20,985 nucleotides of DNA, taken from positions 1-20,985 of IMG/VR virus record IMGVR_UViG_3300046804_003262, one strand, 5' to 3'. This document shows, in pieces, positions 637 through 8,649 of this stretch (position 1 is its first letter; each line of letters starts with the position of its first letter). The DNA is from a virus. A program made the position numbers and the translations under genes. The notes below the pieces were generated by a model that was not told the DNA's origin, ran no database searches, and saw only the letters and a list, made by a program, of their open reading frames with translations.

Positions 637-2457
637 ATGGCTACAGAAAATACATTATCACAACAATTGCTTGATTTTTTAGCAACTCGGGACATTCAGC
701 CCGAAATGCTGGACAAAATGGGCAAGCCCACTGACGCTGAAAACGCTAAAACTTTTACCTTTGACTATGTAAGCGGCACCGGCAAAAACTATGGTACCAT
801 GGTTATTGTGCTTGATGTTGATAACGATTGCAAAATCATGTACGGGGACAATCTGGGCAAGACCATGGAAGGCGATGACAAGAGCGAATTCTTTGATTTT
901 ATCAGCCACCTAGGGCAAGTAGCAGTACGCAATCGTTGGACCAAGACCATACAAGACATTAGCCAGCTCAAGTATACCATGCAAGGACTGGCCGCAATAC
1001 AAGAAGGCCTATTTGAAGGCTACTACGGAACACGCAAGATCAGCTACACTGGCCAACCCACCGAAGCAAGATTGCAAATAGTACACAATCGTGCTCTGGG
1101 CGAAGGCGACGCACGTCATCGCTATGTTGAAAAACTGTTTATCGAAACAGCAGATGGTGAGCGTTTTAAATTGGGCTTCAAGAGCTTGATGGGCGGTCGT
1201 GCTATGTTAGAACACGTTCGTCAAGGTGGCAAACCCTATGACATTCGTGGCAATCACATCACTGAAACTGTAAACGAAATTGCAGTGTTGAACCGTTTCA
1301 ACCGCGCCAGCAACAGTCGCATTGTTGAAGGCTCGACCCAAGACCTTATTACCGAAGCACATGTATACTACCACAGTTTGAGAGAGAATCTCAAACGCAT
1401 GGGCACAAGCCGTGGATATGCAGAGTATTTTGAATCGTGGCATCCGGCCACAATTACTGAACAAGATGGAGTGGTTGACGAAATCAAAACCTTGTTCATC
1501 GAGCAAACCATTGACAGCCGTATTGAGGCTGCGTTGCCATTGTTGGCAAAAATACAGCAACGAGGACAAGAAATGAAAGAAGCAGAAATTTTTGAAAGCT
1601 GGATCAACAATCTAGCTGAAGGTACATGGAACTTACCAGAAACTCCTGAACAATTAGACAAACTCAAAACTCTTATGAGCAAAGAGTTGATTGTGGGCCC
1701 AGATGCCACAAACGCCACAGAACAACTGTATGACTTAGTTGGTGATGACATTTTGTTTGATCGTCTCGGCGAACTTGCCGCACGTGATCCACGAGCCAAT
1801 GCTTGGAATGACACTGAAGTCATGGAAAGACTCAAAGAGTTAGGCATTCAAACTCCCACACCAGTTGAACCTGATGCTGGAATGGAACCAGTAAACACTG
1901 AGCCTGCGGCCACTCCTGGTGCTCCTGCACCAGTAGCGCAACCTGCACCACCAATGGCCGAAGGTTATACTGAAACTGGTGATAATACAGTGGCTGCGGC
2001 AGCCACTGATTTGCACAGTGCTATAAACAAGGACCCTGAAATTATGAAAGGTGTTGTAGTACCTCCCGAAGCCACACAAGAGGTTAAAGAAAACGCAGAA
2101 TTGTTGTCAATTCTAAAACACGCTGGTGTGCCAGTCAAAGAAGGTGTGCTAACAGATTCAACTGGTCACACACTAGAGCACTTACTCAAACGCTTCAGCA
2201 AAGAAGTAGAAGTATTCAAAGAAGGTGGTGACCTGGACCAAGACTTGTACGAAGCCCTGTATGACTACTACTTTGATGACATGCCATATGGCACAAAGAA
2301 AGCCCGTACCGGTGATCCATATGAATGGGTGTCACAACGACTGTACGACGATTTGGGCTTGAATGAAAATCTTATCTCTCCAATGGCTATGCCAGTAGCG
2401 ACCGAAAGCAGTGGTTGCAACATGACAGCCGAAGGCGAGTACTGCCCAGAACATTGA
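637..2457 (+). CDS. Large phage protein of unknown function (606 aa), ends at an in-frame TGA
   Basis: I do not recognise a named family. Visible layout: an alpha/beta-looking N-terminal part (1-230); a region near 310-400 containing AEIFESWINNLAEGTWNLP and the nearby segment VGPDATNATEQLYDLVGDD; a Pro/Ala/Thr/Glu-rich linker at about 410-440; then a C-terminal part with an ELLSILKHAGV helix and an acidic, Tyr/Asp-rich segment (LYEALYDYYFDDMPYG). It lies directly downstream of the terminase, so it is probably late and perhaps structural or head-associated, but this is inference. The start at 637 has no Shine-Dalgarno sequence and follows a late-type box by 7 nt. The reading frame continues in a protein-like way past TGA 2455-2457 (see the separate entry), so the annotated C-terminus CPEH may not be the true or ancestral end. 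Confidence 0.8.
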   Translation: MATENTLSQQLLDFLATRDIQPEMLDKMGKPTDAENAKTFTFDYVSGTGKNYGTMVIVLDVDNDCKIMYGDNLGKTMEGDDKSEFFDFISHLGQVAVRNRWTKTIQDISQLKYTMQGLAAIQEGLFEGYYGTRKISYTGQPTEARLQIVHNRALGEGDARHRYVEKLFIETADGERFKLGFKSLMGGRAMLEHVRQGGKPYDIRGNHITETVNEIAVLNRFNRASNSRIVEGSTQDLITEAHVYYHSLRENLKRMGTSRGYAEYFESWHPATITEQDGVVDEIKTLFIEQTIDSRIEAALPLLAKIQQRGQEMKEAEIFESWINNLAEGTWNLPETPEQLDKLKTLMSKELIVGPDATNATEQLYDLVGDDILFDRLGELAARDPRANAWNDTEVMERLKELGIQTPTPVEPDAGMEPVNTEPAATPGAPAPVAQPAPPMAEGYTETGDNTVAAAATDLHSAINKDPEIMKGVVVPPEATQEVKENAELLSILKHAGVPVKEGVLTDSTGHTLEHLLKRFSKEVEVFKEGGDLDQDLYEALYDYYFDDMPYGTKKARTGDPYEWVSQRLYDDLGLNENLISPMAMPVATESSGCNMTAEGEYCPEH

Positions 2458-2607
2458 CTTGCAGAATGTGGCATGGGCATGGCAACTGGCATCATGGGCG
2501 AGCAAGACCCCATGGATTCCCGCGCCGCTGTAACTGACAGCTACTATGAGTCAAAAGACAGCAACTCACTTCTGGCAAGAATAAAATCATTGGCTTTGCT
2601 CAAATGA
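2458..2607 (+). other. In-frame 49-codon C-terminal extension beyond TGA (readthrough or nonsense mutation)
   Basis: After the TGA at 2455-2457 the same frame stays open for 49 codons to TGA 2605-2607. It reads protein-like: it starts LAECGMGMATGIMGEQDP and ends DSNSLLARIKSLALLK. The end resembles the ELLSILKHAGV helix seen earlier in the same protein. Cysteines on both sides of the stop would make one cluster (C-x8-C-P-E-H-x-L-A-E-C). A single substitution (for example GGA or CGA to TGA) would explain it. Options are a recent nonsense mutation, a sequencing or assembly error, or programmed readthrough (context UGA CUU). TGA is used as an ordinary stop elsewhere here (5605, 11116, 17909, 18646), so a changed genetic code is unlikely. 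Confidence 0.7.
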
Positions 2608-2618: not shown

Positions 2619-2647
2619 TTGACACAGTAGAAAAAAGCGCATATACT
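2619..2647 (+). promoter_or_regulatory. Sigma70-type promoter TTGACA-N17-TATACT for the SSB gene
   Basis: A consensus -35 box (TTGACA, 2619-2624), 17-bp spacer and TATACT (2642-2647). The expected start is near 2654, giving a leader of roughly 90 nt before the ATG at 2747. The -10 box lies exactly in the loop of the hairpin at 2632-2668, so promoter and terminator are interleaved. Confidence 0.75.
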
Positions 2648-2668
2648 ACTACGGTGTTTGCGCTTTTT
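2632..2668 (+). terminator. Bidirectional-looking intrinsic terminator with the -10 box in its loop
   Basis: The arms 2632-2641 (AAAAAGCGCA) and 2659-2668 (TGCGCTTTTT) are perfect 10-bp complements around a 17-nt loop. The right arm ends in a T-tract, and the left arm supplies one for the opposite strand. Transcripts arriving from upstream can form the hairpin; transcripts starting near 2654 lack the left arm and escape it. The core is only GCGC plus A/T pairs and the loop is long, so strength is uncertain. Confidence 0.6.
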
Positions 2669-2746: not shown

Positions 2747-3739
2747 ATGGCATCTTTAGCAGAAATTCGAGCACGACTACAGGCAGCTGAAAACAAACAA
2801 GGTGGGCAATCCACCGGTGGGGATAACAGCATTTATCCACATTGGAACATGGAAGAAGGTCAATCAGCAACAGTCCGTTTTCTTCCAGACGGCAATTCTA
2901 AAAACACATTTTTCTGGGTCGAACGTGCAATGATCCGACTGCCATTCAATGGCATCAAAGGAGAAATGGAATCAAAACAAGTTATGGTTCAGGTACCCTG
3001 TGTTGAGATGTGGGGCGACGCATGCCCAATCTTGGCAGAAGTGCGTACTTGGTTCAAAGACAAATCACTTGAGGACATGGGTCGCAAGTATTGGAAGAAG
3101 CGCAGTTATCTCTTCCAAGGCTTTGTGCGTGAGAACCCACTTAGCGAAGACAAAACTCCTGAGAATCCCATCCGTAGATTCATCATTGGTCCTCAGATCT
3201 TTACCACTATCAAAGGTGCGTTGATGGATCCTGAGTTGGAAGAACTGCCAACTGACTACCTGCGTGGTTTGGACTTCCGTATCAGCAAGGGTAGCAAAGG
3301 CGGCTTTGCTGACTACAACGGTTCTAAGTGGGCTCGCAAAGAGAGCGCATTGACCGAAGAAGAACAAGCCGCAGTTGACAAGCATGGCTTGTATGACTTG
3401 GCAACATTCTTGCCCAAGAAGCCAACTGATGTTGAGCTCAAAGTGATCAAGGAAATGTTTGAAGCGTCTGTTGATGGTCAACCATATGACACCGAGCGTT
3501 GGGGTCAGTATTTCCGTCCTGCAGGCGTTCAGGCGCCAGGTGCTAGCACTGCCGGTGATGAGGATGCACCAGCCAAGGCTGCTCCAGTAGCCAAGGCCGC
3601 TCCTGCTCCAGTAGCAGAAACCCCAGCATGGGAAGATGACGAGCCAGCAACTGCCACTGCTCCAGTAGCAAAACCTGCTGACAACAAGAATGCCCAAGAC
3701 ATCTTGGCAATGATTCGAGCACGTCAGAACAAGCAGTAA
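2747..3739 (+). CDS. 32: gp32-like single-stranded DNA-binding protein
   Basis: 330 aa, close to T4 gp32 (301 aa). It would coat single-stranded DNA during replication and recombination and works with UvsX/UvsY encoded downstream. The layout matches: a short basic N-terminus (SLAEIRARLQAAENKQ), a core from about 30 to 260 with the aromatic/basic run typical of this fold (YWKKRSYLFQGFV, 115-127; RRFIIGPQIF, 143-152), and a Pro/Ala-rich acidic tail from about 265 ending in QDILAMIRARQNKQ. The tail end resembles the N-terminus. Only two cysteines (C85, C93) stand where T4 gp32 has a His/Cys3 zinc site, so metal binding may be reduced or altered. The start is supported by AAAGGAG 8 nt upstream. 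Confidence 0.85.
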   Translation: MASLAEIRARLQAAENKQGGQSTGGDNSIYPHWNMEEGQSATVRFLPDGNSKNTFFWVERAMIRLPFNGIKGEMESKQVMVQVPCVEMWGDACPILAEVRTWFKDKSLEDMGRKYWKKRSYLFQGFVRENPLSEDKTPENPIRRFIIGPQIFTTIKGALMDPELEELPTDYLRGLDFRISKGSKGGFADYNGSKWARKESALTEEEQAAVDKHGLYDLATFLPKKPTDVELKVIKEMFEASVDGQPYDTERWGQYFRPAGVQAPGASTAGDEDAPAKAAPVAKAAPAPVAETPAWEDDEPATATAPVAKPADNKNAQDILAMIRARQNKQ

Positions 3740-4551: not shown

Positions 4552-5607
4552 ATGGGAAAACCCTTTGACGTAAGCAAGTTCCGCAAGGAAATCACTAAGA
4601 GCATTGATGGTCTTAGTATCGGATTTAACGATCCTACTGATTGGATCTCCACAGGCAACTATGCCTTGAACTATCTTATCAGTGGAGACTTTAACCGTGG
4701 AATTCCACTAGGCAAGGTCACTGTGTTTGCCGGCGAATCTGGTGCTGGTAAAAGCTATATTTGTTCCGGCAACATTATCAAGAACGCACAAGAGCAAGGT
4801 ATCTTTGTTGTGTTGATTGACTCAGAAAACGCCCTTGACGAAGATTGGCTCAAGGCCTTGGGGGTTGACACCAATGAAAACAAACTCTTGAAGTTGAGCA
4901 TGGCAATGATTGATGATGTTGCCAAAACTATCTCAACATTCATGAGTGACTATAAAGCTCTGCCCGACGGAGAACGGCCAAAGGTTCTTTTTGTTATTGA
5001 CTCTTTGGGAATGTTACTGACACCTACGGACATCAACCAGTTTGATAGCGGTGATCTTAAAGGCGACTTGGGTAGAAAACCCAAAGCTCTCACTGCCCTA
5101 GTACGGAACTGTGTAAACATGTTTGGTAGTTACAATGTCGGCCTCGTATGTACTAACCACACATACGCAAGTCAGGACATGTTTGATCCAGACGATAAGA
5201 TTAGCGGCGGGCAGGGCTTTATCTATGCTAGTTCTATTGTTGTTGCTATGAAGAAACTCAAGCTCAAAGAGGACGAAGACGGCAACAAAGTAACTGACGT
5301 TATGGGTATTCGTAGTGCCTGTAAGGTCATGAAAACTCGCTATGCCAAACCCTTTGAAGGTGTGCAGGTGAAGATTCCTTACGAAACAGGCATGAACCCT
5401 TACTCAGGTCTTGTTGACTTGGCTGAGAAAAAAGGGTTCCTCAAGAAAGATGGTAACCGTCTTGCATACACTACCCTGGATGGTGAAATTATTAAGTTCT
5501 TCCGCAAAGGCTGGGAAAGCAACGAAAGTGGTTGTTTGGATGTTGTAATGGCTGAGTTTGGAAAACGCAAGGAAGAGGTAACTACAGTGGAGGAGGAGAC
5601 AGAATGA
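4552..5607 (+). CDS. uvsX: UvsX, RecA-like recombinase
   Basis: 351 aa (T4 UvsX 391). It forms a nucleoprotein filament on single-stranded DNA and carries out strand exchange, driving recombination-dependent replication and repair. Seen: Walker A GESGAGKS at 61-68; LIDSENALDED (88-98), whose Glu matches the catalytic Glu of RecA-type ATPases; Walker B VLFVIDS (145-151); and a loop region around NHTYASQDMFDPDDKISGG with the conserved GG. The start ATG is preceded by GGAG at 4543-4546. It overlaps the next gene by 4 nt (ATGA). The gp32-like gene upstream and UvsY downstream support the assignment. Confidence 0.93.
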   Translation: MGKPFDVSKFRKEITKSIDGLSIGFNDPTDWISTGNYALNYLISGDFNRGIPLGKVTVFAGESGAGKSYICSGNIIKNAQEQGIFVVLIDSENALDEDWLKALGVDTNENKLLKLSMAMIDDVAKTISTFMSDYKALPDGERPKVLFVIDSLGMLLTPTDINQFDSGDLKGDLGRKPKALTALVRNCVNMFGSYNVGLVCTNHTYASQDMFDPDDKISGGQGFIYASSIVVAMKKLKLKEDEDGNKVTDVMGIRSACKVMKTRYAKPFEGVQVKIPYETGMNPYSGLVDLAEKKGFLKKDGNRLAYTTLDGEIIKFFRKGWESNESGCLDVVMAEFGKRKEEVTTVEEETE

Positions 5608-5864
5608 TTGAACAGGTAGTAAGCGAAATTTGGGGCGAGCTCAAACGCTACGTCAACACTGTAGATCGTGCCGAAGCCGCAGAGACTGTGGTTCAAATTT
5701 TAATGGATAACGATTGTGATGTTGAGGATATTCGCGATGCTTTTAAAGGTGACAGGGATATCAAAACAGCACTTACATCATATCTAGACAACGACAAAGA
5801 CTACGCCGAAGACGAAGAAGAGTCTGAAGAAGAAGACTACAACGAGGAAGACTGGGAAAATTAA
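5604..5864 (+). CDS. Small acidic protein downstream of uvsX (86 aa)
   Basis: Unknown function. Residues 1-65 look like a compact helical unit (EIWGELKRYVNTVDRAEAAE, then DVEDIRDAFKGDRDIKTAL). The last 20 or so residues are almost all Asp/Glu/Tyr/Asn, a DNA-mimic-like or protein-docking tail. Start is supported by GGAGGAG just upstream and by the ATGA overlap with uvsX; the stop overlaps the next ATG by 1 nt. Translation is therefore probably coupled to both neighbours. The acidic tail recalls the tail of gp32, which recruits partners, but no partner is known here. Confidence 0.8.
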   Translation: MIEQVVSEIWGELKRYVNTVDRAEAAETVVQILMDNDCDVEDIRDAFKGDRDIKTALTSYLDNDKDYAEDEEESEEEDYNEEDWEN

Positions 5865-7099
5865 TGCCCGCAAGGTTGTTTCCTATAAGAACAGCCACTT
5901 CATGTCAGTTAAAATGGAACTGGAGCACATTGTACTTGCATCAAGCACGTACTGCCAGTTGTCATAGAACTGCATGGAGTGATTTTTCTTTGGCAACATT
6001 TGATAGTTTTCACAACACACCAATAAAGATACAAGATCGCGAAGCTATGTTGGCCGGACAATGGCCAGAGCACAGTTGCTCGTATTGTAAAAATATTGAA
6101 CAAGCTGGTGGTGCCAGTGATAGACACATACACATGGATCACCCCAATCGAGTTCCGCAAGAACTCAATGTTGATCCCAGTGCTACACAGGTAACCCCTA
6201 CAGTATTAGAAGTCTACTTCAACAATACTTGTAACCTTGGTTGCTTGTACTGCATACCTGAGCTCAGTAGCAAAATTAACCAAGAGAATGTTAAGTTTGG
6301 GAAATTTGATGACCAAGGTGTAGTACTAGAATCAGTTACTATACACAATCAACATTCGGAGATAGTTGAAAAATTTTGGCAGTGGATGCAATTGAACAGT
6401 CAGCATCTTTTACGCCTTCATGTGTTAGGCGGCGAACCGTTTTATCAGAGCGAGTTTGATCGTTGCTTAGAGTACTTTGATCAGGTAGCACACCCAGGAC
6501 TAGAGCTCAATATTGTAACCAATCTCATGATTGACCATGTCAAGTTACATGATTATCTAAAAAAATTCAGAGACCTGTTGTCTAAAAAGCATTTAAAAAG
6601 AATAGACATCACTTGTAGCATTGACTGCACTGGTCCCGAACAAGAGTTTGTTCGCTGGGGTATGAACATTGATCGTTGGTTGTTTAACTTTGACATGCTC
6701 AGACAACACAAATGGCTGACTCTCAATATCAACCAAACCATCAGTGTGCTAACAATCAAAACCATGCCTAAACTCATGAACTGGCTGGCCGCCTGGCGCG
6801 AGACTAGACCTATTGGACATTTCTTTTCAGTGGTTTCGCCGCAGCCTAGTTACATGGATCCTGCCATACTTGGCGCAGGGGTGTTTGATAGTGATTTTGA
6901 AACAGTATTGGCTCAAATGCCTGATGGCGTTAGCAAACAATACATGGCAGGCATTTTTGCGTCTATCCAAAACACTAAGAAAAATCCTGCAGAAATGTTA
7001 AAATTAAAAACATTCTTAAACGAAAAAGACCGACGCCGAGGCACTGATTGGAAGCAGTTGTTTCCGTGGCTTGCAAAGGAACTAGAACATGTGGTATAG
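5864..7099 (+). CDS. Radical SAM enzyme (CxxxCxxC), phage type
   Basis: 411 aa. The motif CNLGCLYC (C123, C127, C130) is the radical SAM iron-sulfur site, and GGEP (189-192), within LHVLGGEPFY, is the usual SAM-binding element. A second pair, CSYC (C72, C75), in the N-terminal part followed by EQAGGASDR could bind another metal or cluster. Such enzymes cleave S-adenosylmethionine to a 5'-deoxyadenosyl radical; the substrate is unknown. A similar type occurs in many uncultured marine T4-like phages, as I recall it. It lies between uvsX and uvsY with overlaps of 1 nt and 11 nt, so it is in the recombination operon, and metK follows shortly after. No Shine-Dalgarno sequence is seen; translation is presumably coupled. 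Confidence 0.85.
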   Translation: MPARLFPIRTATSCQLKWNWSTLYLHQARTASCHRTAWSDFSLATFDSFHNTPIKIQDREAMLAGQWPEHSCSYCKNIEQAGGASDRHIHMDHPNRVPQELNVDPSATQVTPTVLEVYFNNTCNLGCLYCIPELSSKINQENVKFGKFDDQGVVLESVTIHNQHSEIVEKFWQWMQLNSQHLLRLHVLGGEPFYQSEFDRCLEYFDQVAHPGLELNIVTNLMIDHVKLHDYLKKFRDLLSKKHLKRIDITCSIDCTGPEQEFVRWGMNIDRWLFNFDMLRQHKWLTLNINQTISVLTIKTMPKLMNWLAAWRETRPIGHFFSVVSPQPSYMDPAILGAGVFDSDFETVLAQMPDGVSKQYMAGIFASIQNTKKNPAEMLKLKTFLNEKDRRRGTDWKQLFPWLAKELEHVV

Positions 7100-7541
7100 T
7101 CGTATAACTGCTAACCTTGACGCAATACCAGATTTTATTGCACACTATGAGAACGAGCTTGAATCCGCCAAGAAGGATTGCCGCATCGGAGGCCTAGTTG
7201 AAAAAAATATAACAGCCTTGCCTGGCATTACCGAACATAGATTTAACCAACTGCAAGAGATTGAAGCAGTTTTAAACTATCTCAACATTCAACTACGCAA
7301 GATTAGACGTCGACATTTTCAAAAGTATTTGGAAGCCTATGCTCGTGCGCTAACTAGTAGGGATGCTGAAAAATACGTTGACGGTGAAGACGAAGTTATT
7401 GACTTTGAAACTATCATCAACGAAGTGGCCTTGTTGCGTAACAAATGGTTAGGCATTATGAAAGGTTTGGATACCAAGCAGTGGCAAATGGGACATGTGG
7501 TTCGTTTGCGTACCGCGGGTATGGAAGATATTCAAATTTAA
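7089..7541 (+). CDS. uvsY: UvsY, recombination mediator
   Basis: 150 aa (T4 UvsY 137). UvsY helps load UvsX onto single-stranded DNA covered by gp32. The assignment rests on size, on the N-terminal motif SRITANLDAIPDFIAHYENE, on the basic segment IQLRKIRRRHFQKYLE (about 72-87), and on the presence of UvsX and a gp32-like SSB in the same transcription unit. It starts inside the 3' end of the radical SAM gene (11-nt overlap). Its stop TAA (7539-7541) runs into the ribosome-binding site of metK. Confidence 0.85.
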   Translation: MWYSRITANLDAIPDFIAHYENELESAKKDCRIGGLVEKNITALPGITEHRFNQLQEIEAVLNYLNIQLRKIRRRHFQKYLEAYARALTSRDAEKYVDGEDEVIDFETIINEVALLRNKWLGIMKGLDTKQWQMGHVVRLRTAGMEDIQI

Positions 7542-7548
7542 GGAAAAT

Positions 7549-8649
7549 ATGAGTTATTTGTTTACAAGTGAGTCTGTGAGTGAAGGTCACCCAGACAAAG
7601 TTGCCGACGCAATTAGCGATGCAGTGCTGGACATTGTGATGGCCAAACAAGATCCTGCACTTCGTTGTGCATGCGAAACCTTGGTAACTACCAATCGTGT
7701 TGTGGTTGCTGGCGAATACAAAGGCATTTTGCACACTGAAGAAGTTGACTCAGCAGTGCGAAAAGTTGTCAAAGACATTGGCTACGAGCAAGCAGGGTTT
7801 GACTGGCGCACATTGGAAATCACAAACTTGTTGCATGGACAAAGTGCAGACATTGCCCTGGGCACAGATACATTTGGTGCTGGTGATCAAGGACTGATGT
7901 TTGGTTATGCTTGTAACGAAACTGACAATTACATGCCCAGCGCAATTTACTGGAGTCATAGAATTGTTGAAGAACTTGCAAGGCTGAGAAAAATTGGCAC
8001 AGTAACATTCTTGGGTCCGGATGCTAAATCACAAGTTACATTTGAATACAACGACGACGGCACACCCAAACGCATTGCCAAAGTAGTTTGTTCCACACAA
8101 CACACAGATGACATCAGCATTGATGCTCTGCGTTTGGCAGTAAGCGAAATTATTCGCGCAGTTCTCCCACAAAAATATGTTGACTCCAAAACAGAATTTT
8201 TCATCAACCCCACTGGTCGTTTTGTTATTGGAGGTCCTGATGGCGATACTGGTCTTACAGGTCGGAAGATTATTGTTGACACTTATGGCGGGTATAGCCC
8301 ACATGGTGGAGGGGCTTTCTCGGGCAAAGATCCTACTAAAGTTGATCGTTCGGCCGCATATATGATGCGTTACATTGCCAAGAACATTGTTGCTAGTAGA
8401 CAAGCATCTTGGGCAACGTGCCAGATCAGTTATGCTATTGGTATGAAAGATCCCATGAGCTTCTATGTCGAGTGCGAAGATAAAGAACTTTCAAGACACT
8501 TAACAGCCACAATACCTACTATTGTTGACTTGACACCCATGGGCATCATCAAATACTTTGATCTGTTCCGCCCAATCTACAGCAAGACTACAAATTACGG
8601 ACATTTTGGCAAAGATTTATTGCCTTGGGAAAAAGTAGACCTGTTCTAA
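7549..8649 (+). CDS. metK: S-adenosylmethionine synthetase (MetK)
   Basis: 366 aa, nearly full length compared with bacterial MetK (about 384), and no key region is missing. It makes S-adenosylmethionine from methionine and ATP in the cytoplasm. Seen: GHPDK (13-17), GAGDQGLMFGYA (109-120) and GGGAFSGKD (252-260), the ATP/methionine/metal loops of the family, followed by KVDRSAAYMMRYIAKNIVAS. The start ATG 7549 follows AAGGA by 4 nt, and MSYLFTSESVSEGHPDK matches the usual N-terminus. An auxiliary metabolic gene probably taken from a bacterium. Context suggests its product feeds the upstream radical SAM enzyme and the three methyltransferases of the glycan island. Confidence 0.95.
   Translation: MSYLFTSESVSEGHPDKVADAISDAVLDIVMAKQDPALRCACETLVTTNRVVVAGEYKGILHTEEVDSAVRKVVKDIGYEQAGFDWRTLEITNLLHGQSADIALGTDTFGAGDQGLMFGYACNETDNYMPSAIYWSHRIVEELARLRKIGTVTFLGPDAKSQVTFEYNDDGTPKRIAKVVCSTQHTDDISIDALRLAVSEIIRAVLPQKYVDSKTEFFINPTGRFVIGGPDGDTGLTGRKIIVDTYGGYSPHGGGAFSGKDPTKVDRSAAYMMRYIAKNIVASRQASWATCQISYAIGMKDPMSFYVECEDKELSRHLTATIPTIVDLTPMGIIKYFDLFRPIYSKTTNYGHFGKDLLPWEKVDLF

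Follow-up and report, generated by a model that had tools for sequence, protein, structure and literature searches.

Gene content of the window and identity of the gene

The window, by which we mean the whole stretch of DNA analysed, is a 20,985-base virus record from a myovirus-like phage. It carries the 3' end of terL (138-626), the gene under study (637-2457, plus strand), a gene for a single-stranded DNA-binding protein (ssb, 2747-3739), a uvsX/recA-like gene (4552-5607) and, 3' of the latter, genes for sugar metabolism, glycosyltransferases and methyltransferases. A phage-borne S-adenosylmethionine synthetase is encoded at 7495-8649, close to a radical SAM gene (5864-7099) and to genes for a GDP-mannose dehydratase and an FkbM methyltransferase.

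As read, the gene under study has 606 codons, its open reading frame being closed by the TGA at 2455-2457. Its upstream part (637..2454, plus strand) encodes a TerL-adjacent virion structural protein, truncated as read, that is a relative of PHROG 13484: the product matches profile phrog_13484 over part of its length (E 1.2e-11), and synteny with terL agrees with this assignment. PHROG 13484 proteins of the PA5oct-like jumbo phages, PA5oct gp278 for example, show local homology of 26.7-26.9% identity over about half of the query. The homolog in Pseudomonas phage PA5oct is likewise encoded near terL and is annotated ESI-MS/MS, that is, as a virion protein by annotation, whereas the internal TGA is a feature of the window gene. 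The C-terminal tail described below was traced in an uncultured IMG/VR group and not in PA5oct. Neither the whole protein nor the tail had an accepted match in Pfam, megablast against phages gave none, and a scan of GTDB genomes found no relative.

An in-frame TGA and the open frame behind it

Beyond the TGA at 2455-2457 the same frame reads LAECGMGMATGIMGEQDPMDSRAAVTDSYYESKDSNSLLARIKSLALLK and, as the initial annotation had pointed out, stays open, for 49 codons, up to a TGA at 2605-2607. The length of this frame is unremarkable, for in order-1 Markov sequences matched in composition 8.2% of the segments from stop to stop reach or exceed it; its significance comes from its homology to the C-terminus of the family rather than from its length. 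A search for a second, near-identical contig found none in the records covered, from which close ones may be missing.

Eighty IMG/VR loci encode relatives of the protein and supplied both the full-length homologs and the copies of a motif, CNxTxEGxYCPxH, that immediately precedes the stop. Across all loci, the window included, this motif occurs in 108 distinct copies, and the codon after it specifies glycine in 107 (GGC 47, GGT 43, GGA 9, GGG 8); the window alone has TGA (2455..2457, plus strand). When 26 homologs are aligned, this glycine is likewise invariant. Each of the 54 distinct full-length homologs continues beyond the site and has LLARIKSLALLK, or a variant of it (LxRIKxLALxK), as its C-terminal peptide, so that homologs ending at the same stop, the finding that would have spoken against a meaningful tail, number 0 of 54. 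When IMG/VR was scanned with patterns, the motif with glycine behind it gave many matches (at least the number listed), and with TGA behind it a single match, on an unrelated contig and in a frame that does not come from this gene. The TGA form was therefore not found elsewhere in the family, either in the IMG/VR scan or among the 107 other copies. One of those 107, L120, has its tail swapped for out-of-frame ssb sequence, in what looks like a deletion or a misassembly. Isolated disruptions thus turn up in this gene set, at a low frequency, and the lone stop of the window is of the same kind as the disruption in L120.

The 3' boundary of the gene points the same way. After 2607 come GATAAATAAAC, then TTGACA-17-TATACT and then a hairpin, and many relatives have these elements 3' of their own stops; the TGA at 2605-2607 (plus strand), the position where relatives end, is therefore the ancestral stop of the gene.

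The conserved C-terminus

The 49-codon tail (2458..2604, plus strand) corresponds by homology to the genuine C-terminus of the family proteins and shows no decay. Two features stand out in the alignment of 26 homologs. One is a cluster, C-x8-C-x2-H-x4-C (2416..2469, plus strand), which is possibly a zinc-binding site. Its four columns (C631, C640, H643 and C648 in the numbering of the nearest relative, L002) are invariant, and the TGA splits it behind the histidine: C594, C603 and H606 of the window protein precede the stop, and the last cysteine, C611, follows it. The suggestion that cysteines on either side of the stop belong to one cluster is thus borne out. The other is the C-terminal peptide LLARIKSLALLK (LxRIKxLAL; 2569..2604, plus strand), in which L683, R685, L689 and A690 (L002 numbering) are invariant. 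The short terminal helix that had been proposed here holds as a prediction, residues 680-692 being helical in a structure model of L002. That model has a partly confident core and a tail that is disordered save for this last helix (mean pLDDT 64); a fold search of the PDB with it gave no match at E <= 0.001, and the viral models that match its fold are mostly uncharacterised phage proteins.

Proteins of the family range from 596 to 1373 residues with very variable linkers, yet the CCHC cluster and the terminal helix are kept throughout. Because both are conserved despite such great variation in the linkers, the tail is probably functional in the family, and the model suggests a flexible tether with a binding peptide at its end. 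The 107 glycines, the 54 homologs that continue and the undecayed tail now strongly support what was first surmised from the window by itself, namely that this tail forms the protein's real end.

Age of the stop

Compared with L002, dN/dS is 0.17 in the tail and 0.12 in the core. Nonsynonymous differences in the tail amount to 11.8 over both branches, near the core rate, while a tail left untranslated since the split should have gathered about 25 nonsynonymous ones on the window branch by itself. Three possibilities follow: a stop of very recent origin, a stop that is not real, or a tail that translation still reaches.

Continued translation of the tail is what programmed UGA readthrough particular to this lineage would provide, the major form of the virion protein being short and devoid of the CCHC/terminal-helix tail, the minor one full-length. 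Working readthrough would leave the tail conserved and undecayed, as observed, and the PA5oct homolog is indeed a virion protein. UGA followed by C is a weak termination context, and the stop is followed by C, but a C is expected there for one base in four. The RNA 3' of the stop folds no better than shuffled sequences (z = +0.68), although a stimulatory structure in that position is not always needed for readthrough. The relatives speak against readthrough: with glycine in all 107 other copies and the TGA form confined to one contig, none has a stop at the site, and as the homologs encode the long form only, a pair of forms would be a sudden novelty. The Q-beta A1 protein, a minor extended form, is a product of UGA readthrough, and the window gene resembles its gene in having an in-frame UGA and, behind it, an open extension that reads like protein; the extension of the window gene, however, is the ancestral C-terminus, and its stop occurs in one contig rather than as a conserved regulatory stop. 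The signature expected of regulated readthrough, which the initial annotation had offered as an option, is thus absent (stop not conserved, TGA unique, 3' RNA structure ordinary), and we regard this explanation as highly improbable.

A further reading is that the tail is a separate small protein, made by re-initiation at the in-frame ATG at 2473-2475. In-frame ATG codons do lie close behind the stop, but inspection by eye showed no good ribosome-binding site, and the relatives, without exception, have this stretch joined to the main protein, which makes re-initiation scarcely credible.

Genetic code of the window

Another rival reading is that the phage or its host reads TGA as an amino acid. 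Under code 25, TGA encodes glycine in Gracilibacteria and Absconditabacteria (PMC10746230), and glycine is exactly the residue that homologs have at the site; a TAA, moreover, lies three codons behind the final TGA. Phages in which TGA clearly stands for glycine, however, have many in-frame TGAs each (PMC10746230), and while the window gene shares with them a TGA in a glycine position, the window has this one in-frame TGA and 11 other genes ending in TGA. TGA stops are found in 12 of its 26 genes, the gene under study included; the other genes contain 424 glycine and 156 tryptophan codons without a single in-frame TGA; no suppressor tRNA is present within the window; and the TAA near the gene end belongs to a TATAAATA-like motif that is conserved in relatives. 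Reassignment under code 25 or code 4, which should bring many in-frame TGAs and avoidance of TGA as a terminator, neither of which is seen, was rejected, and we consider it almost certainly not to apply. Selenocysteine at 2455-2457 is unlikely too, as homologs have glycine rather than cysteine there and an Rfam search, with zero matches in all, returned no SECIS element.

A probable isolated nonsense codon

Very probably, then, the TGA at 2455-2457 is a nonsense codon that stands alone, due to a mutation of very recent date or to a wrong base in the metagenome consensus. No other gene of the window looks broken, and TGA ends 11 others. Of the three options first put forward for the stop, a recent nonsense change and a sequence error fit all the data, and regulated readthrough is left unsupported. 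The ancestral gene would have had a glycine codon at 2455-2457 and a protein running on to 2605-2607; the change would be very recent, in the phage itself or in one of its minor variants, or else would belong to the consensus. If the stop is real, the main product would have H606 as its last residue and lack both the final cysteine of the CCHC cluster and the conserved helix at the C-terminus, a truncation that would probably impair the protein, and any full-length protein would come from background misreading of UGA alone.

The present case advises caution: where a conserved tail behind a stop is met in one metagenome contig, a lone nonsense base is the best explanation. The telling test is whether the stop is common to relatives. 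Here the comparison also reveals how the family ends, with an invariant CCHC cluster and a C-terminal helix peptide.

The leader of ssb

Directly behind the gene end, 2608-2615 reads GATAAATA, where relatives carry TATAAATA or CATAAATA, similar to the T4 late promoter. The TTGACA-17-TATACT element (2619-2647, plus strand) is a conserved, near-consensus sigma70-type promoter. A terminator-like hairpin, AAAAAGCGCATATAC...GTGTTTGCGCTTTTT (2632-2668, plus strand), which also trails the gene end in many relatives, shares bases of its 5' arm with the -10 box of the promoter. This composite element (2619..2668) is conserved in 27 aligned sequences, the window and its relatives; the hairpin RNA folds far better than shuffled sequences (z -5.5), with a compensatory change in one pair. 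A promoter of ssb and a terminator of the upstream gene may occupy the same DNA. Further into the ssb leader, at 2678-2729, a decamer ending in AGGCAAC is present in three copies, with ACAGGCAA invariant in the aligned relatives; by analogy with T4 gp32, these repeats are possibly an operator for autoregulation of ssb.
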